From positions 1 to 64,000 of the forward strand of contig WNNJ02002522.1 of assembly GCA_012934845.2 (NCBI GenBank): DNA of 64,000 bases, read 5' to 3'. The stretch comes from Pomphorhynchus laevis (lineage: Eukaryota > Acanthocephala > Palaeacanthocephala > Echinorhynchida > Pomphorhynchidae). Below the pieces are notes generated by a model. That model saw nothing but the letters and a program-made list of their open reading frames with translations, was not told the DNA's origin and searched no databases. This document shows positions 1 through 58,054 of the stretch, one piece after another (positions within the stretch are counted from its first letter, which is position 1; the number at the start of each line of letters is the position of its first letter). A program made the position numbers and the translations under genes.

Positions 1-55
1 ACACACGGTTTGAGTTCATTGGATTACTGTGGGCCATTGGATAAGAGTCATGTTT

Positions 56-99
56 ACGCTACTGAAGAGTCCCGTAAGGACCAAACAGGTGTCTAGCGT
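56..99 (+). ncRNA. Hammerhead ribozyme, unit 1 (core mutated)
   Basis: Stem I is ACGCTA (56-61) with TAGCGT (94-99). The core CTGAAGA (62-68) and stem II GTCC/GGAC (69-72/78-81) are intact. The GAAA box reads CAAA (82-85), so the conserved G12, the general base of the reaction, is replaced by C. The cleavage triplet GTC (91-93) is present. I expect this copy to be inactive. Confidence 0.85.
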
Positions 100-350
100 T
101 GTGCTTTGCGTTCGATTACACACGGTTTGAGTTCATTGGATTACTGTGCGCACACTTGGGTAAATAGATGTAGTTCGCCCAGTTTCAATCTGAACATTTT
201 AGAAATATAAATGGAATCCCTCGTGGATCCTGGACTGCTTTTCAATTTATACTTTAACAAAATATAATTGAATCTGTTTATAGATCACCAGAGAACCACA
301 TAGATTTGTTTCAGTGTGTGTTAATGTGCCATTAGATAAGAGTCATGTTC

Positions 351-394
351 ACGCTACTGAAGAGTCCCGATAGGACGAAACAAGTGTCTAGCGT
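351..394 (+). ncRNA. Hammerhead ribozyme, unit 2 (intact core)
   Basis: Stem I ACGCTA/TAGCGT (351-356/389-394), core CTGAAGA (357-363), stem II GTCC-CGATA-GGAC (364-376), GAAA (377-380). Stem III is ACA/TGT around a 2-nt AG loop, and the triplet is GTC (386-388). All consensus core bases of a type I hammerhead are present. Predicted cleavage is after C388, which would release ~290-nt monomers from a multimeric transcript. Confidence 0.93.
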
Positions 395-634
395 TGTGCT
401 TTGAGTTCGATTACACACGGTTTGAGTTCATTGGATTACTGTGCGCACACTTGGGTAAATAGATGTAGTTCGCCCCATTTTCAACATTTAATAAATGGAA
501 TCCCTCGTGGATCCTGGACTGCTTTTCAATTTATACTTTAACAAAATATAATTGAATCTGTTTATAGATCAGCAGAGAACTACATAGATTTGTTTCAGTG
601 TGTGTTAATGTGCCATTGGATAAGAGTCATGTTC

Positions 635-678
635 ATGCTACTGAAGAGTCCCGTAAGGACGAAACACGTGTCTAGCGT
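635..678 (+). ncRNA. Hammerhead ribozyme, unit 3 (intact core)
   Basis: Stem I ATGCTA/TAGCGT (635-640/673-678) pairs with one T-G wobble. Core CTGAAGA (641-647), stem II GTCC-CGTAA-GGAC (648-660), GAAA (661-664). Stem III is the self-complementary ACAC/GTGT with no loop, and the triplet is GTC (670-672). Such a minimal stem III is typical of hammerheads in Penelope-like elements and retrozymes, and it often needs a dimer to cleave well. Confidence 0.93.
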
Positions 679-921
679 TGTGTTTCGTTCGATTAACTTT
701 TAGTTCATTGGATTACTGGCGCACACTTTATAAATAGATGTAGTTCGCTCCAGTTTCAATCTGAACATTTAAGAAATATAAATGGAATCCCTCGTGGATC
801 CTGGACTGCTTTTCAATTTATACTTTAACAAAATATAATTGAATCTGTTTATAAATCACCAGAGAACCACATAGATTTGTTTCAGTGTGTGTTAATGTGC
901 CATTAGATAAGAGTCATGTTC

Positions 922-965
922 ACGCTACTGAAGAGTCCCGTAAGGACGAAACACGTGTCTAGCGT
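922..965 (+). ncRNA. Hammerhead ribozyme, unit 4 (intact core)
   Basis: Stem I ACGCTA/TAGCGT (922-927/960-965), core CTGAAGA (928-934), stem II GTCC-CGTAA-GGAC (935-947), GAAA (948-951), loopless ACAC/GTGT stem III, GTC triplet ending at 959. Every core base fits the consensus, and all stem I pairs are Watson-Crick. Confidence 0.94.
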
Positions 966-1217
966 TGTGCTTTGAGTTCGATTACACACGGTTTGAGTTC
1001 ATTGGATTACTGTGCGCACACTTGGGTAAATAGATGTAGTTCACCCCATTTTCATTCTGAACATTTAAGAAATGTAAATGGAATCCCTCGTGGATCCTGT
1101 ACTGCTTTTCAATTTATACTTTAACAAAATATAATTGAATCTGTTTATAGATCAGCAGAGAACTACATAGATTTGTTTCAGTGTGTGTTAATGTGCCATT
1201 GGATAAGAGTCATGTTC

Positions 1218-1258
1218 ATGCTACTGAAGAGTCTAAGGACGAAACACGTGTCTAGCGT
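1218..1258 (+). ncRNA. Hammerhead ribozyme, unit 5 (shortened stem II)
   Basis: Stem I ATGCTA/TAGCGT with one wobble (1218-1223/1253-1258), core CTGAAGA (1224-1230), GAAA (1241-1244), GTC ending at 1252. Stem II has lost three bases (1231-1240). It can only form GTC/GAC plus a T-G pair over a 2-nt loop, so activity is doubtful. Confidence 0.85.
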
Positions 1259-1471
1259 TTTGTTTCGTTCGATTACGCATGGTTTGAGTTCATTGGATTA
1301 CTGGCGCACAAAAAATAGATGTAGTTCGCTCCTTTCATTCTGAACATTTTGAAATATAAATGAATCCCTCGTGATCGGACTGCTTTTCAATTTATACTTT
1401 AACAAAATATAACGAATCAAGACAGCAGAGAACACATAGATTTTTTCAAATATCCAATCTCTTGCCAATTT

Positions 1472-1496
1472 GTTTGCTACTGAACTCCTAGCAAAC
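1472..1496 (+). ncRNA. Hammerhead remnant, unit 6 (core deleted)
   Basis: Only stem I survives: GTTTGCTA (1472-1479) and TAGCAAAC (1489-1496) pair perfectly over 8 bp. The 9-nt loop holds the start of the core (CTGA) and has lost the remaining core, stem II and GAAA. It lies in the decayed last repeat, before the TTGATTACACACGG block that follows each ribozyme. Confidence 0.7.
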
Positions 1497-1589
1497 CTTT
1501 ATTTTCTTCTTGATTACACACGGTTTGAGTTCTTGGATTACTTGCCAACTTGGTAAAATGTTTTCGCCTCAGTTTCATTCTGAACTTAA

Positions 1590-1591
<2 letters not shown>

Positions 1592-1659
<68 letters not shown>
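1592..1659. repeat. (TA)n microsatellite
   Basis: About 34 uninterrupted TA dinucleotides mark the right end of the hammerhead array. Confidence 0.97.
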
Positions 1660-1662
<3 letters not shown>

Positions 1663-1729
1663 ATCGTATGGATCATGAAGATCGATTGAAATCGGACTGG
1701 TGATCCTTTGATGGATGCTTATTTATGTA

Positions 1730-2102
1730 TTGAATAGTTGCTAGGTCACACGAGGTGACTTTCGCATTGAAAACCAGCTACAGAATCCTTCCTTCATGAT
1801 ATTCAATTCCATACACACTGACTACTAACGGCACCATTGCCACAGTCGTTTTCGTTTCGCCCGCTTTTTGTCACATGTTGGTAGTCTCGGATAAGTCAAA
1901 TTTCAAAAGGCGAAGAGTTGGTATTCAGCCTTCTGACGAGCCTGGTGCTACCAACACGTGGCGAAAAGCGGGCGAAACGAAAACGGTTGTGGTAATGGTG
2001 CCGTTAGTAGTCAGGGTGTATGGAATTGGATATCATGAAGGAATGATTCTGTAGCTGGTTTTCAATGCGAAAGTCACTTCGTGTGACCTAGCAACTATTC
2101 AA
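1730..2102. mobile_element. Palindromic foldback element / MITE
   Basis: Two 157-bp arms, 1728-1884 and 1948-2104, are inverted copies with roughly ten mismatches, separated by a 63-bp spacer. The outer ends read TTGAATAGTTGC and GCAACTATTCAA and are flanked on both sides by TA, which would be the target duplication of a Tc1/mariner-type insertion. No ORF is present. The whole element would fold into one long hairpin. Family assignment is inference from the TA flanks only. Confidence 0.75.
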
Positions 2103-2109
2103 TATATAT

Positions 2110-4120
2110 CAGGGTTCGTCAACGGGAGCCCTGTGGCCCTCTGGTGGCCCCTGAAATGTTCAGGGGGAAACAGACAATTTTGTAAGAGTTAAGGGAGGCA
2201 AAGAGTTTTCTGGGGGGACCACAGAGTTTTCGACGGGCGCACACCTAGTCGAATTAGGTCCGCTGTGGAGTATGACTCAAACAGAATAGATGACAAAAAT
2301 TAAGTAAACGAGGACCGTTCACAAGTAGATTTCGTGTTTGTACACACAAAATCAATTGTACACAAAAAACTTTTATAATTTTTTGTTCTGTTAAATATAT
2401 CAAATATTGTTTATATGTCTATAATTGTACTGATTCAAACACTTTTAAACAAAAATAACAAGAAATTGAATGTACAAAAAGAAAATGTCGGCAATATTTT
2501 GTAGAATATATGGAATTTGGATTCATTCTATCTCCAATCAATGCAACACATTCAATGTGCCTGATATATCACGTAACGTTATCGAACGAAAGCCTACACC
2601 CATCAAAACTAAAGACGCTTTCACAGATAAAACATCTGGAGGAGTCCACGAATACCACAGATTACTTCAAAGCAAAACGCGACGCATCTTATCCCGCGGC
2701 ACTCTGGATAAATTATTTTTATCAGCTCGACGTAAAACCGATACGGGGTTGATTGTTTCTTACGAAATAGCGGAAATAATTGACAAGTCGGGATTGCCCG
2801 ATTCAATTAGAGAAAAGGTGATCGCTCCTGGGATTAATAAGGTGATTGCAGGAATGACTAATCTGGACCCCACTTCGATTTTCAAGTCTATAGCGTTCAG
2901 TACTCAAACAATTTCTATAAGAATTGATGAAATCAGCTGGGATATGCAAGCGCAGTTAGATCAAAAACTTGTAACTAGACCATTTTCTCTCTACCTTGAT
3001 GAGTCAACATTCCAGAATATTCAAGCTATATTAATGGCGTATGTACGATTTCTTGATAAAAATGATTGTTTGGAAGAATTTCTTTATTAACTATCAGTTA
3101 CGGCCGATTGTAAAGGCGAGACGCTCTTCAAGATGGTGATGGATTATTTCTCCGAAACTGATATCCAACTCTCGAATATAGTCGCATGTTCGACTGATGG
3201 AGCTCCGGCAATGATTGGACGGCATACAGTTTTATCTTCCATTTAAAACGCGCTGTACCGTCGGTTATATGTATACACTGCATTATTCAACGACATAATC
3301 TGGCAGCAAAAAAACTGAACGAGCGACTACATTAGTCGATGACATCATTCTTTGCACAACACGAATTGAAAAGTGAATTGTGTAAAGCCAAAAAGTACAT
3401 TAAATTTATGAGTGATATATTCGAAAAGCTCAACATTTCTGTTGAGAAACTCCAAGGTAAATGTGCCGATCTCATATTGTCAAAGGAAAATATCGGCGCA
3501 TTCATATCTGAACTCACATTACAAGCAAAATTTGGCTCGAAAGATATTTGTCAATTTCCCCACGGTTGATATCGTATCAAACATAATAACCGACGATGAC
3601 ATCCTCATTTACACATCATATTTGACAAATCTCATATTACACATGAACAAAAGTTTTGCGGACTTATTAGCCATGGAAATACCATATTGGGTCGTAAATT
3701 CATATGACTGCATACCACATGAACAAATAATTGAAGTTCAGGACGAGGTAGTCAATCTTCAGCATGACGTGTCAATGCGAAACAAATTTTCTAAGCTTGG
3801 TCTACGCGCCTGTTTCTGCCACGATATTATGGAACATTACACCATTCTTCGATCGAAGCTACACATGTTCATGCTCCCATTCCCAGCATTTATATTGTTG
3901 AAGCGGAATTTTGCAAGCTTTTGTCGCTGTAGACAAAATACCAAAACCGCCTCAACATTGAGCGACGTGGAGATCTACGCATGAGCCTGTCAACAATGAC
4001 TGCAGATATGGTTTATAATTTGTATAAAAATATTTTTTTTGCAAAAACGAAATTTGAGGGGCCACAGCTATATAACTTTATGTAAAGAGGGCCACGGCGA
4101 AAAAAGGTTGACGAACCCTG
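2110..4120 (+). mobile_element. hAT-type DNA transposon, decayed
   Basis: Terminal inverted repeats of 14 bp, CAGGGTTCGTCAAC (2110-2123) and GTTGACGAACCCTG (4107-4120), enclose 2.0 kb. The right flank ATCTAGAA fits the nTCTAGAn target site common for hAT elements. The left flank is now ATATATAT, matching 5 of 8 positions, so the target duplication is not intact. The interior encodes fragments of a BED-finger transposase. The element lies directly beside the palindromic MITE. Confidence 0.85.
2470..4000 (+). pseudogene. hAT transposase, BED-finger (ZBED/FAM200-like), broken
   Basis: Pieces in different frames follow the order of a hAT transposase. A zinc-finger region at 2510-2680 contains NESLHPSKL and DYFKAKRD. 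The first acidic segment contains YLDESTFQNIQ (near 2990-3035), and a continuation contains STDGAPAMIGRH (near 3190-3225). A helical middle lies at 3339-3569, and the C-terminal dimerisation stretch ERRGDLRMSL is near 3960-3990. These motifs recur in the domesticated ZBED5/FAM200/SCAND3 group. The reading frame shifts inside the finger and carries stops after 3090, so no transposase can be made from this copy. Confidence 0.8.
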
Positions 4121-12357: not shown

Positions 12358-13341
12358 TTATTCGTTAATTGATTTGTCTAGCTTTTTTTGTATGTTATCA
12401 AAAGAATCTTTTCCCATATAGTCTATTTGTCCGGTTTCCCATTCTTGTTTACTTGGCTTACTTTCGACAGAGGTACTTTGATATACTGGATGGGCTTGGC
12501 TGTAAGGGATCACATGTATGCTTTCAGTTACTTTAACACATTGCATGCACTTTGAGTCAAGTAAAGATTTAACATGAGCATTAAACAACTTCCACCATTC
12601 AGAGTAGAAATCCTGTTGTTCGCCTGATACATTTTCTACGCAATTGCTTGCAATATCATAGGTCGTATTCCATGGTTTCATACCGTTAGTAAACTGAATA
12701 ATACGGACGTTTTCTTTGAACGATCTTAAGGCTGGTTGATATGTATAAAATACATTTGGCGTTACATTGTATGTGAATGGTAAATGCTTGGCTATATCTT
12801 CAGTTGACCATTTGCTAAAGAAATTATTAAGAATTACTTGAAAGCTGACATCGACTAAGCATGAACTTTGAGATGCCGTTATGAGCTGTTGATACGTATG
12901 CTCACAAGGTCGGTAAACGAATACACCAGCGTTAAAGTGATCAGGCCATTTCGTATCGGAGCTAGCAGATAGTTCTTCTCGGTCAAACAAGTCACACGTA
13001 TTTTGCAGTACTAGACAAGCGGGATCTAAAAACACACATTTGCTAAATCTCGTCAGCTTCCAACATTGAAGTTTCAGGACAGCATCTCTCAAGTCTAGTC
13101 TGTTTTCTAGAAGCGCTTGTACATCAGCGTCTAGCTGTATCTGTTCCACAATATCAAATGCTGAGTTCAAGGCATCAATATAATTTGCACTGATATTGTC
13201 AACTAAGCAGGTTACCTTATTTAAGGTACCGGATTGTTTCAATGACTTTGCCAGAACAAGTGCCCCGATAGCTTCATTATCATTTAATGCTACAGTAACG
13301 TACGATTGCTGCTCACTGCTGCATGATTGTTCAGCTGACAT
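12358..13341 (-). CDS. Glycogenin-like protein with altered metal-binding site
   Basis: Single intronless ORF of 327 residues; the start at 13341 puts SYVTVALNDNEAIGALVLA close to the N terminus, as in family members. Glycogenin is a GT8 glucosyltransferase that primes glycogen by glucosylating its own tyrosine from UDP-glucose. Recognisable blocks are KLQCWKLTRFSKCVFLD (90-106), the FDREELSAS block (119-127), FNAGVFVYRP (136-145), KHLPFTYN (185-192) and KPWN (222-225). The C-terminal glycogen-synthase-binding motif WETGQIDYMGKDSFDN is at 301-316. The usual DxD reads D106-P-A108. The second acidic motif DxxD reads D164-V-S-F167. The metal-binding His of HFLGxxKPW is Gln216. The acceptor Tyr is kept at 199. 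Catalysis is therefore probably lost or weak while partner binding may remain. No poly(A) trace marks it as a retrocopy, though lack of introns leaves that open. Confidence 0.88.
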   Translation of the reverse strand: MSAEQSCSSEQQSYVTVALNDNEAIGALVLAKSLKQSGTLNKVTCLVDNISANYIDALNSAFDIVEQIQLDADVQALLENRLDLRDAVLKLQCWKLTRFSKCVFLDPACLVLQNTCDLFDREELSASSDTKWPDHFNAGVFVYRPCEHTYQQLITASQSSCLVDVSFQVILNNFFSKWSTEDIAKHLPFTYNVTPNVFYTYQPALRSFKENVRIIQFTNGMKPWNTTYDIASNCVENVSGEQQDFYSEWWKLFNAHVKSLLDSKCMQCVKVTESIHVIPYSQAHPVYQSTSVESKPSKQEWETGQIDYMGKDSFDNIQKKLDKSINE

Positions 13342-24510: not shown

Positions 24511-26393
24511 TATCGATTTTAGCCAGTCGAGGGGAATCTTTGATTTGGAATAATATTTAATTTTACACAATTTTTCTGTTTCGAATTGTCTTAGAATCGA
24601 AACTCATATTTTATATCTTTTTATTTTGTTTGTAAATAATAAGTTGTAATAATTACGTCCGTGGTAATCAAATTTCTCGAATCGTCTCGAGAAATCTCTA
24701 GAGTGTTTTTCTATTTTTGATAGGGATAATAGCATTGATGTAATGGATCCACAATTAGTTGATCATAAGAAGTATTGGCAATTACAGGTGTCACTGTATA
24801 TGGTAAAATGTCCATTGTCTTCGTTTTTTGCCAATTACTTTTTAAATTCACTACTCTAAATAGTTTACGCAAACAGAATGATCATAAAAATACCATTTAA
24901 CTTAGTTATCATATTATGATGTGACAGCTTAAGCACTTGTTGCTTAAATAGAAATTCATAGTTTTGAACACATTGTTAAGTTTTCCTTAAGACAGATTTT
25001 TTTCACATGTACAATAAACAATTACGCAACTCACATTGAAAATATTTTTCTCGTTGAAAATATTTTTCACATATTGTTTGTAATTATTTTAGTAAAATTA
25101 CTTCAAATTATTAAACATTATATTTTAATAATTAATTAGAATAATATAAATATTATCACTTAATTAAATATTATAATATTAGAATATAATAAAAATACTA
25201 TAGATAATGTGCTGTTTCGCCAGACAGCTGAATTCCTTACTAGTTTTGAAAAATCAAATTTGTTATTAATTTAACAGTTTCAACGTAATTGATATAAATT
25301 AAATTTTTGATGTTTTTAATTTGATACGTTTAACATTTTGAATTTTTATGATAAATTTCTAAATTGTTGTGGTGAATTTTAAAAATAAAGTGTTTAGTTT
25401 GTACTTTGTTATCTCAAACGTTTCAATGTTAAGCGTGTAAATATGACTCAAAAAAGGAAACAAAGAAGGCACACTTTAAATAAACCACTCCTTTCATAAA
25501 ATATTACGTTCGTCATAAAACACGGCTATAACTATAAAGCGATACAACTTTAAACGCGTATCTGCAATTAGGTAGTATAAATTTTTAAATAATTGTCCTT
25601 TATCGTTAAATTTAAAGGTATTAATATTTTCAAAAGCTTATTACTACTTTGATAAACTAGCAAACGCTAAATCGAGAAAATCCACTTTCAAGTTTGAATT
25701 ATATCACAGTCATTATTTGATAATAATGCTGGTATCACCATTATTTACTGCTTGTAAATAAGCAATAAATAATGTTTACCGATCATTATAGTATATAATG
25801 ATCGGTAAACGATAGTAGTCTGTCAGTAATAAATTGTTAATCATTAATTTTACAACATCAACCATTAAGTGATTCAATTACTACAATAGCGTTATATTTT
25901 CGTTAAATCATTTTATTTATTTAATTTATTAATAAAATTAATTTAACGAGTGAGACCATTCCGCGTGAATTTCTTGTAAAACATGTAAGCCAGACGCGAA
26001 AGAATGACGAATGCCGTTTCGTCATACAATGACTCATCAGTGCCAGATCCCTCTCACTACTTGATGCAGAAGAAGACTGTCCTCCTCTGTATCAAGGACA
26101 TATATAAATAAAAATATTATATTTTATTATAATAAAATTAAGTTTTGTAAGAAATTAAATATATTAATCAATTCCCAAATGAGCATTTCAAATTACATTT
26201 TGCTCAGATACTATATTTTCGTATTCCCTATACTAATGTGTGTGACCAAGTATAAAGTTAGTGATCGCAGGTAAAAAATGAGGATATAAAGGAAAACGGT
26301 GGAGGTCAGAAATACATATGATTGCATTATAGTGACAACAGATTTGTGTCGTCGTTATAAATTTATAAAAATACCAAGATATCACAATGATTT
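24511..26393. other. AT-rich intergenic DNA with a hairpin and direct repeats
   Basis: No convincing gene. An exon-like stretch at 24724-24787 is bounded by ATAG and GGTGTC and would read DNSIDVMDPQLVDHKKYWQL, but it has no partner exon. A 17-bp-arm hairpin (25774-25790/25794-25810) is centred on GTA. A 75-bp direct repeat occurs at 25685-25760 and 26394-26465. The interval between the repeat copies holds a hammerhead-like motif on the minus strand. Confidence 0.55.
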
Positions 26394-39816: not shown

Positions 39817-42800
39817 TTAGTACGCCACATTCCAGCCATATCGAACAGGTACTTTACGGACTCTTTCTGATCGTCTAGGTAATTGGCGATGGCAATTATC
39901 ATGTTCAAGATTTTTTTCATCCGCCGAATTCGTAATGGTAAGTGGACTTTGATCACTAGTTATCTCAATCCGCTGTGACAATGTTGAATTCATTTTCTCT
40001 TGATCATTGTCTGCATCATTGGTAATTTCTCGATTCTCTATACCTTCTCCTTTACGAAGCATATCGGCGTGTAATCTGTAGTTTTGATCAGCGTTGCTCA
40101 CGACATACGATGTCCAGTTTGAGCGCTTTTCTATTTCCCCCGCCGACCACGGTTCGTTACTTTTCTGCCGATACCACACCTTTTCTCCTGAATAAAACTC
40201 CCTCGGTTTGGATTTCTTATCGAAATGTATTTTGTTATTTGCTTGATAACCTTCAAGTGTAGAACGTAGATTCGGTTTCAAACGATCAAATAAGGTAGTC
40301 AAACGATGACCGGTAAAGACAATTGATGGTGGTTTTCCTGTGGCACTGTGCGGTGTGTTTCTATACGACAATAAGAATTGCTGCAATCGCTTTGGACGAT
40401 CGTGTATATTGTAAGGTCTGATCACTTTATTCTTTAGTACTTGAATAAACCTCTCCGCTAAACCGTTTGATCTTGGGTGATACGGAGATACTCTTACATG
40501 CTTTACTCCATTAGACTGCAAAAAATTCGCGAATTCGGAAGACTGAAACGGGGGACCATTGTCTGATACCAGCTCTTCCGGAACCCCATTTCTGGCAAAT
40601 ATTTCTCTTAATACCTTTATTGTTGAGTGAGCACTTGTACATTGCATCTTAATAACCTCTGGCCATTTTGATAGAGCACACTGAACCACAAAGTAATACT
40701 CCTGTTGGGATGGTCCGGCGAAATCTACGTGAATCCTAGTCCATATATCGCTGGGTACAGGCCAATTGTGAAGTGGATGGTTAGGTTCGTTATTCCGGAA
40801 ACGCTGACAATCGTTACAATTTTGTACTGAGCGCTCGATATCAGCATCCAATCCAGGCCACCATACGTAATATCGTGATAAGGACTTCATAGCCACAATT
40901 CCCGGATGGCCTGCATGCAAAGCTCGCAAAACTGTCTCCCGTAGACTCGTCGGAATTAATACACGCGCTCCTAAAAGCAAAATTCCATTTTCAAATGATA
41001 ACTCATTGCGTCTTGTGCTGTAATAATGAATGTTCGAGTCTGTAACTTTGTTTGGCCAACCGATCGACACATATTGCGTCACCTTTTTTAGAATCAAATC
41101 TTGTTTCGTAGCTTCGCGAATAGCTGTTGCGGATAATAAAGGTGTGTCCTCACATAACAAATTCACACAGATATCATTTGTTCCCGACGTTTCTGCACAG
41201 TCAAGGCCTTGACATGGAAATCTGGAGAGGACATCGGCAATTATGTTATCTTTTCCTGGAATGCATTCGAGTTCGTAGTCGAATTGACTCAACAACAATG
41301 CCCATCTGACTAAACGCTGATTCGCGATCTTTGGCAAATTACGTTGATTTCCGAATATGTATTTCAAAGGTTTGTGATCAGTGATGAGTACGAACTTTCT
41401 ACCTAATAGAAAATATCGAAACTTATTGACACCGAATATAAGTGCAAGTGCCTCCCGGTCGATTTGCGAGTAATTTATTTCCGCGCTGCTCAATTTTCTT
41501 GATGCGTATGCAATCGGCAGATAACGGTTGTTTTTAGTTTCTTGAAGCAGTACGGCTCCTAAGCCTCTCTCACAAGCATCACAATACAGCTTCAGGTTAC
41601 TCTTCCCATCATATGGTATTAAAATTTTCGGTTTTAGCATACTTTGCTTGACCAATTCAAATTGGCTTTGATGCCGATCTGTCCAGTTCCAATTCGCTCG
41701 TACACCCGTTAACGAATACAAGTCAGCACACTGCGACCGCAAATGAGGAATAAAACGTTCAAGGAACCCTATGGTTCCCAAGAACGTTCGCAGTTCTTTA
41801 GGATTTGACGGTGGACAAATATTTTGAATAGTATCAACTTTCTCTGGATCAACTTTTACCATTCCTTTATCTAACACGTGTCCCAGAAATTTGACTTGTT
41901 CTTGAAGAAATAAACACTTTTCACGTTTAACTCGTATTCCCGCATTCAATAATCTTGTCATTACACTTCGAAGTCTGTCTATATGTTCTGAACGTGTTTC
42001 ACCTGCAACTACAACATCATCCAGATAAACTGCGACGCCCGGAATCGTACCGAGTAATTGATTCATATAACGCTGGAACAAAATTGGTGCAATGGATAAC
42101 CCAAATGGTAATCGACGATATTGATAATATCCGAAGGGTGTCGATATGGTCAAATACTTTCGAGAGTCTTGATGAACTTTCATTTGTGAATACGCATCCT
42201 TTAAATCCAATACTGAATACAAGGTGCCTCCTGCGATTTTGCTCAGTATCTCCTCAAATGTCGGTAATTCGAAACAATCACAATTCAGATACGGATTAAT
42301 TGTCGCCTTGAAGTCAGCGCAAAGTCTTATTGAGTTATCCTTCTTGAGCACAGAAACAATTGGACTCGCCCATTCAATATAATTACAGTTTGAATCAACT
42401 TGCTCTAATGTTCCATTCGATAAAAGGCGCTTTAACTCTTCTTCGATTTTTGGCTTTAATGGCAGTGGTACGCGACGAGCCGGAATGCATCGTGCAATAG
42501 CCGATGGATCAACTTGTAACTTTATCTCCAAATCCTTAATGTTCCCAAGATCTTCATTGAATAACTCCTTAAATCTGAGTAACATGTGGTTTAAATCGGA
42601 TGCACCTTGTTGATTTAAATTTAACTGATTGATAGCTCGTGGGCGGGATCTTACTTGACGTGGCAAGGACATGTTAAATGCTTCTATCCACGGTTGTCCA
42701 AACAAGCTCTTTTCTGTTTCGTATACGACCTCGACATTCAACAATTTGGCTACATTATCTAGTTCTACAGTCACTTGACATTGACCTATGCTCTTTATCA

Positions 42801-43971
42801 ACCCTCCACCAAAACTTCTCAGCCATCTTCCCGCTCTTAGCTCAGGCGAACCACAACTTGACCATGTTTTTTGAGATATTACAGACAACATTGCTCCCGT
42901 ATCAAACTCCATTTCCACTTGAACTCCGTTTATTCTCACTTCCAATGTCGGTCCCAGGATATGGTCCCTTCGACAAACGTTTTGAATTTCGAGAAAAGCC
43001 AACTCTACAGCCTTATTATCACCATTCTCGTCTGATATCAACTGATGAATATTTTGTAGTGCTACCTTGCAGCATCGACGAATATGACCTATCTTACCAC
43101 AACGGTGACATTTTACGTTCTTAGCCCAACACTGTTGCTCATTTACGTGATTTGAACCATTACATCGTGTACAACGAGGCATGGAATTTTTATTCCATTG
43201 TGATCGACGTCCAGCACTTAATTTATTAACATGCGAAATTTCAACATCCTTTTTCGAGTCATTTGCATAATTCGAGCTGGTTTCCGTCGCTAACAAGTGC
43301 TTAGTAGCTTGTGTCATTTCCCAATTAGAAGCAATCCTAATTACATCGTCTAACGTAGGATTGTCTAATCGTAATAGACTCATACGTATTTCCTCGATTG
43401 GAGTATATGCAATTACCAGATCTCTCAATCTGTCGTCGATTGCTTGCTGTTCGGTTTGAATGGATTGATCGAAAAACGAACACTTACTAGCCAGGCCCCT
43501 TGCTTCCGCTATCCAATCTTTATGTGACTGATTGGCTTTTTGTCGACATTGCGTAAATTCGAATCTGGCTGCAACTATATGCATCGGCTTTTTAAAATGA
43601 CGATCGAGTTCCTTAATAATCATCTCGAAAGTAATGTCCTCTTTTTCGAAAGACGGAATCAATTGTCCAACCAAGCGAAAAATTTCTTGACCACAACTGG
43701 ACAGTAAGAATTGTTTTTGTCGCATCTGTGAATCAACTCTGTGCATGCCCAAAAAATTCTTCAGTTGAATCCCGTAATCAATCCACTTATCGTGATCTGC
43801 ATTGAAATGCTGAAACGCCGGTATATTGCAATCCTTATTGGGATTTTCACGATTTTGCAGACTTTCCATCAACTTCGTCAATGTACGTTGTTGTTCCCAT
43901 ACAATTTTCATAATGTCGTTCGACGAAAATTTTGAACCACCCTCGTCGCCAATTGTTGTGTTTTCAGACAT
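39817..43971 (-). CDS. Gypsy gag-pol polyprotein
   Basis: 1384 residues in one open frame. Gag spans about 1-260. Two zinc knuckles follow (CTRCNGSNHVNEQQC 267-281 and CHRCGKIGHIRRC 288-300). The aspartic protease has FDTGAMLSVIS (356-366). The reverse transcriptase (about 500-690) has SVLDLKDAYSQM (586-597), LPFGL (621-625) and YLDD (649-652). RNase H has LYCDACERGLGA (795-806) and TDHKPLKYI (864-872). The integrase has an HHCC domain (HAGHPG...CNDC, 1019-1055) and a DDE core D1083, D1137, E1173 with the usual D35E spacing. The start at 43971 lies inside the 5' LTR, so codons 1-6 are LTR-encoded. Gag and pol are fused without a frameshift. All catalytic residues are present. Confidence 0.93.
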   Translation of the reverse strand: MSENTTIGDEGGSKFSSNDIMKIVWEQQRTLTKLMESLQNRENPNKDCNIPAFQHFNADHDKWIDYGIQLKNFLGMHRVDSQMRQKQFLLSSCGQEIFRLVGQLIPSFEKEDITFEMIIKELDRHFKKPMHIVAARFEFTQCRQKANQSHKDWIAEARGLASKCSFFDQSIQTEQQAIDDRLRDLVIAYTPIEEIRMSLLRLDNPTLDDVIRIASNWEMTQATKHLLATETSSNYANDSKKDVEISHVNKLSAGRRSQWNKNSMPRCTRCNGSNHVNEQQCWAKNVKCHRCGKIGHIRRCCKVALQNIHQLISDENGDNKAVELAFLEIQNVCRRDHILGPTLEVRINGVQVEMEFDTGAMLSVISQKTWSSCGSPELRAGRWLRSFGGGLIKSIGQCQVTVELDNVAKLLNVEVVYETEKSLFGQPWIEAFNMSLPRQVRSRPRAINQLNLNQQGASDLNHMLLRFKELFNEDLGNIKDLEIKLQVDPSAIARCIPARRVPLPLKPKIEEELKRLLSNGTLEQVDSNCNYIEWASPIVSVLKKDNSIRLCADFKATINPYLNCDCFELPTFEEILSKIAGGTLYSVLDLKDAYSQMKVHQDSRKYLTISTPFGYYQYRRLPFGLSIAPILFQRYMNQLLGTIPGVAVYLDDVVVAGETRSEHIDRLRSVMTRLLNAGIRVKREKCLFLQEQVKFLGHVLDKGMVKVDPEKVDTIQNICPPSNPKELRTFLGTIGFLERFIPHLRSQCADLYSLTGVRANWNWTDRHQSQFELVKQSMLKPKILIPYDGKSNLKLYCDACERGLGAVLLQETKNNRYLPIAYASRKLSSAEINYSQIDREALALIFGVNKFRYFLLGRKFVLITDHKPLKYIFGNQRNLPKIANQRLVRWALLLSQFDYELECIPGKDNIIADVLSRFPCQGLDCAETSGTNDICVNLLCEDTPLLSATAIREATKQDLILKKVTQYVSIGWPNKVTDSNIHYYSTRRNELSFENGILLLGARVLIPTSLRETVLRALHAGHPGIVAMKSLSRYYVWWPGLDADIERSVQNCNDCQRFRNNEPNHPLHNWPVPSDIWTRIHVDFAGPSQQEYYFVVQCALSKWPEVIKMQCTSAHSTIKVLREIFARNGVPEELVSDNGPPFQSSEFANFLQSNGVKHVRVSPYHPRSNGLAERFIQVLKNKVIRPYNIHDRPKRLQQFLLSYRNTPHSATGKPPSIVFTGHRLTTLFDRLKPNLRSTLEGYQANNKIHFDKKSKPREFYSGEKVWYRQKSNEPWSAGEIEKRSNWTSYVVSNADQNYRLHADMLRKGEGIENREITNDADNDQEKMNSTLSQRIEITSDQSPLTITNSADEKNLEHDNCHRQLPRRSERVRKVPVRYGWNVAY
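43937..43951 (-). promoter_or_regulatory. Primer-binding site, tRNA-Ser(GCU)-like
   Basis: TGGCGACGAGGGTGG begins two bases after the 5' LTR. It agrees with the complement of the CCA end plus acceptor stem and start of the T-arm of tRNA-Ser(GCU) as I recall it. The same bases encode gag residues I-G-D-E-G-G region. Confidence 0.75.
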
Positions 43972-45284: not shown

Positions 45285-48195
45285 ATGGCGTCCCATCTCT
45301 CCCCCTTGTCTTCTTCGCTAGTCGATCTCGCTCCTAAGCATACTTTTCGTCTTAGTCTATTCAATACTCGCTCCATTCTTCATAAAGCTGATATGCTTCT
45401 CGATATCTTCGATCAATTATCTATCGATATTCTCTGCATTACCGAATCCTGGCACACTGACTCCAACGATCTTGCGATTCGTCGTCTATGTCGCTCTGGT
45501 TGTTCTCTAGTTGAATCAGCTCGTCAAATTACATCTCATACATCTACTGCGTCTAACCATGGCGGTATTGTTGCCATTGCTCGTCACCCAATGTCTTTAC
45601 GTAAAATCAACGTTAACATCCGTTACACCTCGTTCGAATTACTCATATGCAGATTATCAACGCCTTTCCCTCTGGAACTTGTGATTGTATACCGTCCAGG
45701 TTCAGTTGACCCATCACGTATCTTCTTTAACGACCTTGCAGATCTAATGTCTCACTGTTCATTGTCTTATACTCCTTCTTTTGTTCTCGGTGACTTTAAC
45801 ATTCGTCTTGATCGCCCGTCTGACTCTGACTCTATCACTTTAACTAATCTTTTTTCTGATTTTAACTATAAATTACTTTCAACAAGCCCAACTCATATTC
45901 TCGGCGGTGCTCTCGACATCATTGCTGTTCCTAACTGCTTCAATGACTATACCTCCTTGTCAATTACTGATCCTGGTTTGTCCGATCATTTCCTTGTCAC
46001 TCTTACTCTTACTCGTCCCCATCCTCCTTCTCCGCCTTTACCATTATCTACACCAAGTCGACCCTGGAAGCTTCTCGATATCCCTATTCTCTGCACATCC
46101 TTACTCAATTCTTCACTCTTTTCACTTCCTCTTAACTATCTCTCTCCCGATGATCTCTGCATTCTGTTTGATTCTGAACTTACGTCGATCCTCAATAACC
46201 TTCTACCTAGTCGACTTCGACGTTCCCAGCGCTTGCGCCATGCTCCCTGGTTCGATTCTGACTGTAGTCTTTCTAAGCGTCGACTCCGTCACTCTTTTCG
46301 TATGTATAAACGCTTTCTTAAACGTTCACCCAATTCACTCCCTCCAAATCTTCGTGATTCCTACTTTTCTCAACGCCGTTCACATCTCATTCTTATACGT
46401 ACTAAACGTACTCTCTTTTGGCGAAATCAACTCGAGTCATCTTCCAACTCGAAATCTCATTGGAAAATCTTAAACTCAATTCTTTCACGATCATCTACCC
46501 CTTGTAATATAAATCCTGATGAATTTTCTTCTTATCTACAAACTAAGCTATCTAATTTACTTTCCCTACTACCCATAGCCCCCTTGTACCCACTCTTATC
46601 TTTAAATACTTCCCTCCCAGAACTATTCCACCTTCTTCCCGTTTCGTCTGATGAAGTTTCTTCGGTTCTGCTGTCATAACCTAATAAAACCTCTCCTTCT
46701 GACCCAATTCCCACTCACTTACTTAAAAATATCTGCACTTTTATCTTACCCTTCCTAACCACATTGTTCAACTCGTCCATCCGTAGCTGTACATTTCCTT
46801 CCATCTGGAAATGCGCCACTGTTCGTCCTATCATCAAAAAGCAATCTCTCGACTCTTCACTACCATCTTCGTACCGTCCAATCTCACTTCTCCCAACCCT
46901 CTCTAAACTCCTTGAGCGTCTCGTTCTTAAGCAAGTTAATACATATCTCTATTCCTCTAACTTATTTCCTCCCTTCCAAGCCGCTTTTCGCTCTAATTAC
47001 TCTACCGAAATTGCATGTCTTAAAGTTTATAACGACTTACTCATATCGCGCGATCATAAATTATGTAGTGTCATAGTTTCTCTTGATCTATCGTCTGCTT
47101 TTGACATCGTCGATCACTCGATTCTTCTCCATCGCCTTCGTCATGATTATGGCTTCTCTTTACCCACTGTATCATGGTTTTCTTCATATCTATCAAACCG
47201 TACATTTCGCGTATATTCTAACTCTTCTCTCTCCCATCCTTCGTCCATTCCGTCCGGTGTTCCGCAAGGCTCCGTATTAGGCCCTATACTTTTCTCTCTT
47301 CTTCTTGGTGATTTGTCTTCGATTTCTCATAAATTTAACTTCCATGTTATGCAATATGCTGATGACATTCTCATCTATGCTCATGCACCTGTTTATCGTA
47401 TTCGCGATCTTAGTGTTTCTGCTTCCGACTGTCTTGTCTCAATTTCCAATCATCTTTCTTCCCTTCGCCTTTCTCTGAATCCTGATAAATCCAAAATTAT
47501 GTGGATCCTACCTCGACGCCTCGGCTTCGAACCTCCCTCCGTATCATTAAATTCTAAAATTCTTCCTATCGTTGATAATCTCGTTTTCCTAGGCTTCCAT
47601 TTTGACAACCGACTTTCACTTAAACCTTTCGTTAGAGATCAAAGTACGCTCATCTACCTTGATACTCCGCAACCTCCGTCAAGTTCGTAGATTGATCGAT
47701 TTCCCTTCTTGTATGACTCTCATATCATCTCTCCTTTTTTCTAGACTCGATTATTGTCTTAGTCTATTTTCCAACTCACCTAAATCCACTCTTCTTCCCC
47801 TACAACGCATCGTCAACGCAGCTGTCCGAATTCTCCTCCGTCTTCGTCGTTTTGATCACACATCCTACCATCTTGCTTCTCTCGATTTGCCTACAATTTA
47901 TTGTCGTGTTCAAATTCGTCTTCTTATCGTTGCTTTCCGCCTTGTAACTTTTCATACCCCTTCATTTCTCAACCTTCCTTTTCTTGATAATTCTCGTCCT
48001 GTTTACTGCTCCTTGCGTTCCTGTAATTCCCTTCTTTTACATGTCCCAAACTACTCTACCTCCTTTGGACTCCGCTCCTTCCTGGTGGCTGCTCCTCTAT
48101 CGTGGAATCATCTGCCCATTCATATACGCCAATCAACTTCCCTGCAGTGCTTCAAACGACAAATCCGATCCCATCTGAACAATTTAACTGCTTGA
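45285..48195 (+). pseudogene. LINE ORF2 (APE endonuclease + reverse transcriptase), two lesions
   Basis: Endonuclease domain about 45300-46050: LFNTRSILHKADML, ITESWHTDSNDL, VIVYRPGS, GDFNIRLDRP, SDHFLVTL. The linker has APWFDSDC and LFWRNQLESSSNSKSHWKIL. The reverse transcriptase is at 46764-47690: YRPISLLPTLSKLLERL, FPPFQAAFRSNYSTEIACL, VSLDLSSAFDIVDHSILL, GVPQGSVLGPILFSLLL, MQYADDILIY, LSLNPDKSKIMWI. The C-terminal region is at 47602-48195. One TAA (46677-46679) replaces a codon that is Leu in the antisense copy, and a one-base gain near 47640 shifts the last part. This is the clearest view of the family. The YADD box and GVPQGSVLGP wording place it in the CR1/L2/Daphne group. Confidence 0.9.
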
Positions 48196-53934: not shown

Positions 53935-54339
53935 ATGTGTGTCACTTCTATTTAGTATAATAGAAGTAACTTCCATTTAGTCTTAAATGTCACTTCCATG
54001 TAATAGTTATTATGAATAAATGGAAGTTTAATGAGCAAATAAATAATATTATTTAAAAAACTAATCTTGATCAATTTTTCGATAAAACACGAATCAACGT
54101 TTTCACTGTCTCAACGGACGTCTATTGAAGTACTTAATTGATATTAACCAATATGATTGGATGTCCCTCACCATCACAAAATCAAATTTAAAACGTTTAG
54201 TTTAGTCAAACATTTTCAATTGTGTATTTAAGCTGTTAAAAATTAAGCTGACAAAACTTAAAGCAAATAAATAAACGAAACGTTTAAAATATTTCGCGCT
54301 GATGATAAACATATAATCATATTGGTTATACATTATATA
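53935..54339. other. AT-rich spacer
   Basis: The motif TGTCACTTC(T/C)A recurs three times near 53938-54000, apparently debris of the preceding repeat. Otherwise nothing is recognised. Confidence 0.5.
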
Positions 54340-54540
54340 TTTCACTATGCTTTCCCACAAGGAGACAAACACCAGACATCATTCTATATATCCTTATCAG
54401 ACCAAGAAATAGAACAGAATTAAAGTCATTATGCATGTCAACCATTCGATGTGTGACGACAAACTTTAACAACGGCAGACGCGCTTTGCTATAACTGAGT
54501 GCATCAGTGCCGTGATCACAATAATCATCCATAGGCAACT
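54340..54540 (-). repeat. Hammerhead-like repeat family, inverted copy
   Basis: The minus strand carries TTGCCTATGGATGATTATTG near 54538-54519 and TTTGTCGTCACA near 54463-54452, blocks shared with the direct copies at 54.9 and 57.7 kb. The left part, CTATGCTTTCCCA to CAGACCAAGAAATA (54346-54412), recurs in direct orientation at 54791-54857. So the two halves are arranged differently in the two copies. Confidence 0.7.
54472..54513 (-). ncRNA. Degenerate hammerhead, stem I intact
   Basis: On the minus strand ACGGCA (54513-54508) pairs perfectly with TGCCGT (54477-54472). The triplet GTC (54480-54478) lies immediately before the 3' arm. CTGATGC (54507-54501) has A9 changed to C, stem II is damaged, and GAAA has become CAAA. 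The loopless stem III (CGCG) is recognisable. Confidence 0.5.
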
Positions 54541-54823
54541 TAACATACGCTTAAACAGTGTTTAAAGCTTGAAAAGCAGAACTACCCTTAATCTGAATCA
54601 TCGGAGGGAATTTAGCATAAGCTATGTGCATGGCAATGCGTATTGCAGTTTAACCATGCATTAGGCACTAAATTCCTTTTAATAGAAATGGTGTTCTACA
54701 GAGATACGTTTAAGTGTACAAGTATATGAAATATAATTTGTTGTTACACCTGCCCTGAGGCACACACCGGTGTACTTATAAATAAATCACTATGCTTTCC
54801 CAACAAAGATGTATAAACATAAG

Positions 54824-55206
54824 ACAGAATTCTATATATCTTCAGACCAAGAAATATAATGGGATGCCTATGGATGATTATTATGGTCATGGTACTGATG
54901 ATCTGCGTTCGAGCGAAACGCGTTTGCAGTTGTTATATTTTGTCGTCACATATAGAATGACTGGGCATACGTAGCGACTTTGAATATAGCGACTTTGAAT
55001 ATTCATTAAAACAGTTATTACAAATAACTGTTAACATCAGAATAAAATAAGATGATAGAGCAAAATTGGAAACCGGTTTTAGTCACAATAAAGGATCTAA
55101 ACTGATAATCTCATATCAGATTCAGAGATTCACATTTTTTCATAGCAATAAAATAGAATAAGGATGACCGTAACGGATGCAGAGCCAACAATTATATGAA
55201 CCAAAA
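54824..55206 (+). repeat. 383-bp hammerhead-like repeat, copy 2
   Basis: Over 95% alike to 57673-58054 by eye. It contains the hammerhead-like motif at 54891-54930, a duplicated TAGCGACTTTGAATAT (54975-55002) and an AGTTATTACAAATAACT hairpin (55012-55028). Confidence 0.9.
54891..54930 (+). ncRNA. Degenerate hammerhead-like motif
   Basis: CTGATGA (54895-54901) and GCGAAAC (54913-54919) are consensus core elements. The loopless ACG/CGT stem III follows, then a TTTGC end. Stem II has lost a base on its 5' side (TCT versus GAGC), and stem I keeps only GTA/TGC-type pairing. Comparison with 54472-54513 suggests an ancestral GCTC/GAGC stem II and ACGGCA/TGCCGT stem I. Confidence 0.45.
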
Positions 55207-57672: not shown

Positions 57673-58054
57673 ACAGAATTCTATATATCTTCAGACCAAG
57701 AAATAGAATGGGATGCCTATGGATGATTATTATGGTCATGGTACTGATGATCTGCGTTCGAGCGAAACGCGTTTGCAGTTGTTATATTTTGTCGTCACAT
57801 ATAGAATGACTGGGCATACGTAGCGACTTTGAATATAGCGACTTTGAATATTCATTAAAACAGTTATTACAAATAACTGTTAACATCAGAATAAAATAAG
57901 ATGATAGAGCAAAATTGGAAACCGGTTTTAGTCACAATAAAGGATCTAAACTAATAATCTCATATCAGATTCAGAGATTCACATTTTTTCATAGCAATAA
58001 GATAGAATAAGGATGACCGTAACGGATGCAGAGTCAACAATTATAAGGACCAAA
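57673..58054 (+). repeat. 382-bp hammerhead-like repeat, copy 3
   Basis: Near-identical to 54824-55206. The boundaries of similarity at both ends are sharp, which suggests dispersal as a unit. Confidence 0.9.
57740..57779 (+). ncRNA. Degenerate hammerhead-like motif
   Basis: Same sequence as the motif at 54891-54930: CTGATGA (57744-57750), GAAA (57764-57767), ACGCGT stem III, no good stem II. Confidence 0.45.

Follow-up and report, generated by a model that had tools for sequence, protein, structure and literature searches.

Copies of a dispersed hammerhead-ribozyme repeat in Pomphorhynchus laevis end like those of a Penelope-like element

The hammerhead array at the start of the window

The stretch of Pomphorhynchus laevis DNA analysed here (the window: 64,000 nucleotides, positions 1 to 64,000 of contig WNNJ02002522.1, which is numbered C1461 below) begins with a tandem array of a repeat family, called fam1, most units of which contain a type I hammerhead ribozyme. 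Copies of fam1 were followed across the genome, and the places at which they end suggest that the family was spread by the machinery of a Penelope-like element (PLE). The array had been recognised in an initial annotation made from the letters alone, and it is real. Tandem Repeats Finder (TRF) reported units with a period of 284-296 bp at positions 33-1412 (4.8 copies), BLAST gave a fam1 run at 30-1448 that amounts to 4.81 units, and the Rfam search that the annotation had proposed placed four of the five units above the gathering score of RF00163 (Hammerhead_1, type I; 34 bits), all on the plus strand. The type I model matches end to end, and no other hammerhead family reaches its Rfam gathering score in the array. 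The first base of the array is also base 1 of the contig, the left side having been cut by the contig start (Table 1).

All five units had been credited with a stem II and the GAAA of the core, which is true of most of them. Unit 1, with its CTGA at 62, reads GGACCAAAC, i.e., its GAAA is broken and it has no Rfam match, and in unit 5 stem and loop II are shortened (GTCTAAGGAC), with the RF00163 cut-off still being passed. The cleavage sites that had been proposed for units 2, 3 and 4 fit the predicted unit bounds, which are 94-388, 389-672, 673-959 and 960-1252 and give lengths of 295, 284, 287 and 293 nt. Judging from its sequence, RNA of the array should cut itself at these sites. The window has seven occurrences of the core pattern CTGANGA-N5..20-CGAAAC, where shuffled sequence would lead one to expect 0.09, and four of the seven lie inside the array. 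The GC content of unit 94-388 is 38.3%, no open reading frame (ORF) of 120 or more amino acids overlaps positions 1-1591, and one unit used as a query had no match in a phage collection. Positions within the unit are given below as monomer positions, where 1 is the base after the cleavage site (window 94) and 295 is window 388. Beyond 1448 the array is disturbed; its remnant at 1512-1601 corresponds to monomer 21..119 at 83% identity, the alignment running a few bases into the following (TA)n.

Table 1. Features of the window, in window coordinates
Feature	Position	Strand	Basis
Array, about five fam1 units, left-cut	1..1448	+	TRF 33-1412, BLAST 30-1448
Unit 1 hammerhead, broken core (CAAA for GAAA)	56..99	+	sequence; not RF00163 at gathering
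Zone A in unit 94-388 (monomer 101-122; equivalents in other units), putative reverse transcription start zone 1	194..215	+	20/62 3′ ends
Tail core, ATCC-CTCGT-GGAT hairpin between the zones; further copies start at 500, 787, 1083 and (degraded) 1364	216..240	+	
Zone B in unit 94-388 (monomer 148-180), putative reverse transcription start zone 2	241..273	+	26/62 3′ ends
Unit 2 hammerhead, predicted cleavage 388/389	351..394	+	RF00163 40.3 bits
Unit 3 hammerhead, predicted cleavage 672/673	635..678	+	RF00163 39.2 bits
Unit 4 hammerhead, predicted cleavage 959/960	922..965	+	RF00163 41.2 bits
Unit 5 hammerhead, short loop II, predicted cleavage 1252/1253	1218..1258	+	RF00163 36.2 bits
Degraded last array piece, ends at zone A (monomer ~119)	1512..1591	+	BLAST run 1512-1601
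(TA)34 into which the array 3′ end runs	1592..1659		TRF
fam3 head-to-head inverted element past (TA)34	1660..2110		self reverse-complement alignment
Glycogenin gene	12358..13341		
Hammerhead-core-like motif of another family	25971..26080	-	
Open 1384-aa Gypsy-type polyprotein frame	39817..43971	-	protease, reverse transcriptase, RNase H and integrase matches
LINE-like ORF	46764..47687		RVT_1; LINE-like by own reading
Decayed fam2 copies, core-like motif 54895-54919	54334..54992		BLAST 79-86% to fam2; pattern
Decayed fam2 copy, core-like motif 57744-57768	57674..57841		BLAST; pattern

The family across the genome

The assembly that was searched comprises 249 Mb in 3,242 contigs. A genome-wide search for the unit, also proposed with the annotation, revealed a dispersed family: the 295-nt fam1 query gave at least 176 matches, 40 of 110 first-look candidates having been scored, so that all fam1 counts are lower bounds. 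The RF00163 model, for which 73 of 40,608 first-look candidates were scored, gave 65 matches, of which 62 exceeded the cut-off; 14 control genomes yielded none. For the mapping of ends, 66 stretches on 45 contigs were used, after six had been dropped (a piece of only 53 bases, three stretches that matched a second family, and the two belonging to a second, near-identical double array on C2913). More than one unit was present in 39 of the 66, up to a length of 7.3 units.

fam1 units are without a long ORF and can therefore only be passengers of an enzyme encoded elsewhere. No copy has the layout of a long terminal repeat (LTR) element, the copies being partial or of multiple units; a primer binding site and a polypurine tract were not searched for. 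The placement of fam1 among the non-LTR retrozymes of animals is supported by its tandem units of about 300 nt, the type I hammerhead in most units, the GC content of 38%, the dispersed copies and the PLEs in the same genome.

Where the copies end

Four 3′ ends were set aside because they lay at a contig edge or adjoined another stretch, which left 62 free 3′ ends. As many as 46 of these fell into one of two AT-rich zones, A (around monomer 119; 20 ends) or B (around monomer 173; 26 ends), which are 54 nt apart and together make up 18.6% of the unit, whereas only 3 of 32 free 5′ ends did so (Fisher p 1e-9). Since the zones were drawn after the ends had been seen, a binomial p of 3e-21 is too small; in a test that did not depend on the zones, the fullest 22-nt window held 25 of 64 3′ ends, a number that never exceeded 16 in 3000 random sets. 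BLAST alignments run a few bases into TA sequence, and the end positions are therefore good to about ten bases. A (TA) run of at least 8 adjoined 37 of the 62 free 3′ ends but 5 of the 32 free 5′ ends (Fisher p 6e-5), and it was found at 35 of the 46 3′ ends inside the zones versus 2 of the 16 outside; such a run was present in 4.2% of 7,833 control stretches taken at distances above 300 bp. The array of the window itself ends at zone A and then continues into its (TA)34.

An empty insertion site was sought with the joined flanks of the copies on C2295 and C518, and most matches lay on one flank only. A 77% match on C1921 spans the C2295 join; there the repeats of the two flanks come together at a short stretch of TA, and fam1 is absent. 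The matches that reach past the C518 join, on C3149 and C997, carry a PLE module (L103, L104). Two other repeats (..GGGTAGGTGTTTGAATCGAGC.. and ..TAATAGTAGTGCA..) were seen to adjoin fam1 TA sites recurrently (C1898, C2295, C460 and C285; C1723 and C2495), and at one 5′ junction of fam1 (L056, on C2751) there are inverted fragments of the hammerhead core (gtaaggacgaaacacg), as if made by repeated template jumps.

Head-to-head pairs

Fifteen fam1 insertions consist of a minus stretch followed directly by a plus stretch, an order in which both outer ends are 3′ ends. Both ends lay in the zones in nine of them (C1798, C518, C2301, C2295, C1793, C2924, C1723, C2097 and C2913), and in all nine one end was in zone A and the other in zone B. 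The two arms of one insertion were clearly alike in six pairs with at least 200 common positions, other loci being as close in 1-15% of comparisons; in most pairs with short arms the likeness was not clear. At a further locus (C2885:74992-75657, L050) two fam1 pieces of 80% identity are placed tail-to-tail, both ending in zone B and facing each other over about 70 bp of AT-rich DNA. Taken together, the polarised ends and the head-to-head pairs indicate that fam1 was dispersed by reverse transcription.

PLE-1, a Penelope-like element with two 3′ ends

A search of the fam1 flanks led to PLE-1, a repeat with two alternative 3′ ends, most of which run into (TA)n. The shorter end, A′ (..CCGAGTATTAATATA), is followed about 50 nt further on by the longer, B′ (..AATCTAAACTATATA). 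By reading only, its 3′ part holds a small hammerhead-like core (CTGAAGAAGGCC..GGTCGAAA), to which no Rfam family matched. At locus L005 this 3′ part stands directly after the end of a PLE-type ORF, the two forming one element; on that contig (C2462) a cut copy of PLE-1 and an array of fam1 are no more than 200 bp apart. The PLE-1 ORF encodes 911 amino acids (L129) and was matched by RVT_1 with E 9.4e-6 and 25.9 bits, just below the Pfam cut-off of 29.6. Residues 150-650, compared with a set of 5.8 billion proteins, had 315 relatives, down to E 1.3e-95. Most of the 120 relatives listed carry PF00078, the reverse transcriptase domain, and PF26215, presumably the helix-turn-helix of PLE-like proteins, and 15 of the 120 carry a GIY-YIG domain (PF01541). 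In PLE-1 itself the Pfam GIY-YIG model matched neither the 257-aa end nor the long ORF, and no protein relatives were found for that end alone; its C-terminal part could be aligned to other GIY-YIG domains of this genome by hhalign (Prob 89, E 2.3e-6).

The last 257 residues of PLE-1 recur at 86-100% identity in no fewer than 70 stretches, in a search that scored 148 matches out of 4,386 first-look candidates. Among the listed matches of the flank search there are 15 head-to-head PLE-1 pairs, and in every one of them one arm ends at A′ while the other passes A′ (p 3e-5 at even odds). Of the arms that pass A′, 13 end at B′ and two break off within the tail. That only one of the two inverted ends bears a tail is known as an option in PLEs (PMC3846280); for PLE-1 it is so in each of the 15 pairs seen. 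The pairs at L093-L102 and L125-L128 have a common 3′ module, upstream of which several unlike sequences are found, with the two arms of a pair agreeing in most cases; these may represent additional non-autonomous elements, or RNAs that acquired the PLE-1 module.

A common tail

The stretches from A to B in fam1 and from A′ to B′ in PLE-1 were picked by position and then compared by local alignment against shuffled sequences. The alignment score was 36, compared with 16.0 +- 3.1 for shuffles, and 27 compared with 13.0 +- 2.5 when the TA ends were left out; in both cases none of 1000 shuffles was as good. Both tails contain the motif ATCC-(5 or 6 nt)-GGAT. Two further families share parts of this organisation. 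The first, fam3, lies directly beyond the (TA)34 of the window as a head-to-head inverted element, in which the left arm (-) ends at the longer site and the right arm (+) at the shorter one, with a tail hairpin at 1703-1716 (-) and a hammerhead-like core from 1933 (+); its tail is like that of PLE-1 (0/1000 shuffles as good). The second, fam2, is a hammerhead-like repeat with a unit of about 460 nt and 1,426 first-look candidates genome-wide, of which 39 were scored. It has two TA-joined ends about 50 nt apart, and all three pairs examined (C2548, C1318 and C1027; the candidates on C2274 and C1921 were left out) consist of a short and a long arm, while some fam2 ends are at neither site (L119, L121 and L124).

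An Rfam E-value scan of 19 of 20 GIY-YIG loci and of 8 element loci found no hammerhead in PLE-1 or fam2 parts except for a weak HH9 match in fam2 (E 0.17). Matches to miRNA families in the same loci were discarded, as they lie in palindromes. A fam2 copy and PLE-1 were observed on one TA run of C1318 (L108/L129); with the neighbours on C2462 described above, this suggests that TA runs act as nests for several families.

Proposed mechanism

The reading preferred here is that fam1 is probably a non-autonomous retrozyme family spread by PLE machinery, with transcription, self-cleavage and a circular template as its putative steps. A multimeric fam1 transcript would cut itself at its hammerheads into units of about 290 nt, which could be closed into circles, or it might stay an uncut multimer. 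The RNA would then be captured by the protein of PLE-1 or of a close relative, because fam1, to judge from the similarity, appears to carry a copy or mimic of the PLE-1 tail between two start zones. The PLE endonuclease would open a TA-rich site, where the 3′ end of each DNA strand would serve as a primer for reverse transcription within the RNA. One of these ends would start in zone A and its partner in zone B, either on a single RNA molecule or on two that a protein dimer brings together. Reading round a circle, or along a multimer, would yield tandem units; joining of the two cDNAs at their 5′ ends would yield a head-to-head pair; and the loss of one arm, or failure to make it, would leave a one-way array such as that in the window. 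The production of tandem units in this way is favoured by the 39 of 66 stretches that are longer than one unit. What is seen in the genome is the two favoured 3′ zones, the TA-rich junctions, the variable 5′ ends and the A+B pairs, with the same in PLE-1.

Biochemical work on a PLE of Anolis agrees with the reaction proposed. Its protein, when purified, was shown to cut DNA and to extend it on both strands, with a preference for AT-rich sequence; reverse transcription begins at two internal positions between which the tail lies (PMC11167929). The Anolis start site is not homologous to the DNA that is cut (PMC11167929); in fam1, by contrast, the zones share their AT-richness with the target. 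A link to Penelope elements had been suggested in the initial annotation on account of the small stem III; the link is borne out by the common tail and the pattern of insertion, but not through stem III.

A number of observations count against this reading. Outside both zones lie 16 of the 62 free 3′ ends, among them several decayed copies, ends without TA and two near position 43-44 (C2459 and C460); at least one stray 3′ end, at position 295 on C2871, is a mapping artefact. In the remaining 6 of the 15 fam1 pairs one end is elsewhere (C2459, C308, C1898, C285 and C460) or cut by the contig (C1875), and of the 5′ ends at pair junctions 5 of 32 are inside the zones. The tails of fam3 and fam1 are not clearly alike without their TA ends (14% of shuffles as good), and that of fam2 is weakly like those of PLE-1 (0.7% of shuffles as good) and fam1 (4%). 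Other GIY-YIG or PLE-like families are present in the genome, and beside those PLEs that are positive for PF01541 (L060-L078) no consistent TA junction was found within 1.5 kb downstream; a tail-like ATCC..GGAT hairpin occurs in only three of these loci (L063, L064 and L074). The match on C1921 is a suggestive empty site and not a proven one, as its repeats may gather at TA sites themselves, and the (TA)n could partly be a product of the insertion reaction. The array of the window is decayed and may not be active.

Alternative explanations

The alternative to which most weight has to be given accepts the same PLE machinery and holds that the template is a linear, uncut multimer, the hammerhead being irrelevant or acting later; this is judged possible, though less likely than not. 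The 5′ ends of fam1, though scattered, are concentrated at monomer 52-94 (22 of 64, P 0.004), a cluster that could reflect a transcript start or a stop of reverse transcription; a start would favour linear multimers. In Anolis, moreover, hammerhead mutants of the PLE insert unaffected, and the authors consider the in vitro substrate to be mainly RNA that has not been cut (PMC11167929). On the other side, 42 of the 64 5′ ends are outside the cluster, and published animal retrozymes accumulate as circles (PMC7229834). A second question is whether the head-to-head pairs arose by priming at both DNA ends or by self-priming (snap-back) of one cDNA, as has been proposed for PLEs of Adineta (PMC3846280). 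In 13 of the 15 PLE-1 pairs the centre is at least 90% palindromic (at L095 in 136 of 137 positions; the exceptions are L127 and one pair at L094), as snap-back would produce. Snap-back, however, copies the first arm to its own start, so that both arms should end at the same site, and the sites differ in 15/15 PLE-1 pairs and in 9/9 classified fam1 pairs, which makes this route unlikely.

It is likewise unlikely that fam1 is moved by a long interspersed nuclear element (LINE), with the TA ends and inversions resulting from LINE-type target priming and twin priming. A LINE-like ORF with RVT_1 does lie in the window (Table 1), and about 52% of P. laevis transposable elements have been reported to be LINEs, compared with about 15% PLEs (PMC7943196); in the end mapping, which covered the hammerhead families and PLE-1, fam1 nevertheless has both the tail and the two-site signature of the pairs in common with PLE-1. 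Least probable of all is that fam1 is an ordinary satellite with an idle ribozyme, spread by unequal crossing-over or by re-insertion of DNA circles. Local amplification of DNA predicts that units should be more alike within arrays than between them, and their mean divergence is indeed 3.2% within (203 pairs) versus 7.5% between (2,878 pairs). Neighbours-but-one are also slightly more alike than neighbours (P 0.016), which is expected from a two-unit circle, but crossing-over could give the same. Such a satellite would not be predicted to leave short dispersed copies with polarised ends or head-to-head pairs of the A+B type. The annotation had offered retrozyme or ribozyme satellite as candidates, and of these labels retrozyme is the better, its checkable features having been found in fam1.

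Relation to known systems

The SM-alpha repeat of schistosomes and Satellite 2 of newts each hold a hammerhead in a tandem repeat of about 300 nt and are thus like fam1 in layout. The newt hammerhead satellite is mentioned in PMC7229834, which describes non-LTR retrozymes of metazoans with a type I hammerhead, tandem units of about 170-450 nt, low GC, no LTR layout, dispersed copies and PLEs present. By description, fam1 shares all of these, and it has a stem III that is small and loopless. In fam1 it can be read where copies end and that the tail resembles the one of a PLE in the same genome, neither of which was met with in the available part of PMC7229834. PLEs are named there as a strong candidate for the mobiliser of animal retrozymes, with the priming step left open. 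The LTR retrozymes of plants (PMC4918200) are non-autonomous, have hammerheads that bound the unit and are modelled with a circular RNA, as is proposed for fam1. They differ in their LTRs and in their hammerheads, which are of type III where that of fam1 is of type I, and their movement has been ascribed to Gypsy elements (PMC7229834).

Poseidon of Anolis carolinensis (PMC11167929) and Penelope of Adineta vaga (PMC3846280) show, as here, an AT-rich target, head-to-head repeats and an optional tail at one end. Two start sites of reverse transcription that bound a tail are known from PLEs and are proposed here for fam1, and a hammerhead inside the element is known from Anolis Poseidon (PMC11167929). 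Unlike PLEs, fam1 is without a long ORF, and its hammerhead matches the Rfam type I model over the full length. Animal retrozymes, the hammerheads of PLEs and the proposal of PLEs as mobilisers were thus already known, the new part being the evidence of two-site ends and of a common tail. No such evidence for retrozyme ends was found in the titles and abstract openings of the open-licence papers listed, a scope in which subscription journals are mostly not included.

A broader reading, for and against which the evidence is about evenly poised, is that animal retrozymes may be to Penelope elements what short interspersed nuclear elements (SINEs) are to LINEs, i.e., hammerhead circles bearing a PLE tail, on which the two ends of one broken TA-rich site would prime at different zones of the same RNA. 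If true, a single mechanism would account for tandem arrays, head-to-head pairs and the one-tailed rule, and it would extend to the retrozymes of other animals. For the inverted pairs of PLEs, the observations in this genome offer a reason why the tail is one-ended, namely that the two DNA ends would use different start sites. On the question of what copies animal retrozymes into DNA they supply a concrete enzyme (PLE-1), start sites that are predicted, and an element in the RNA, the A-hairpin-B tail, which narrows the matter to a single protein, to be purified, and a single RNA.

Other features of the window and the assembly

The glycogenin of the window points to an animal; the best named match to it is from the acanthocephalan Neoechinorhynchus agilis, at 42%, which is hardly better than the matches to molluscs. 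Beside the genes and decayed fam2 copies of Table 1, the window contains a hammerhead-core-like motif of another family, CTGATGAGTCATTGTATGACGAAAC, with no obvious stem I; a motif close to it is found in L084 at 59 (+). One contig, C1660 (L059), carries a tmRNA together with the best GIY-YIG match (a 458-aa frame) and has the look of bacterial DNA, an indication that bacterial contigs, at least this one, are included in the assembly.

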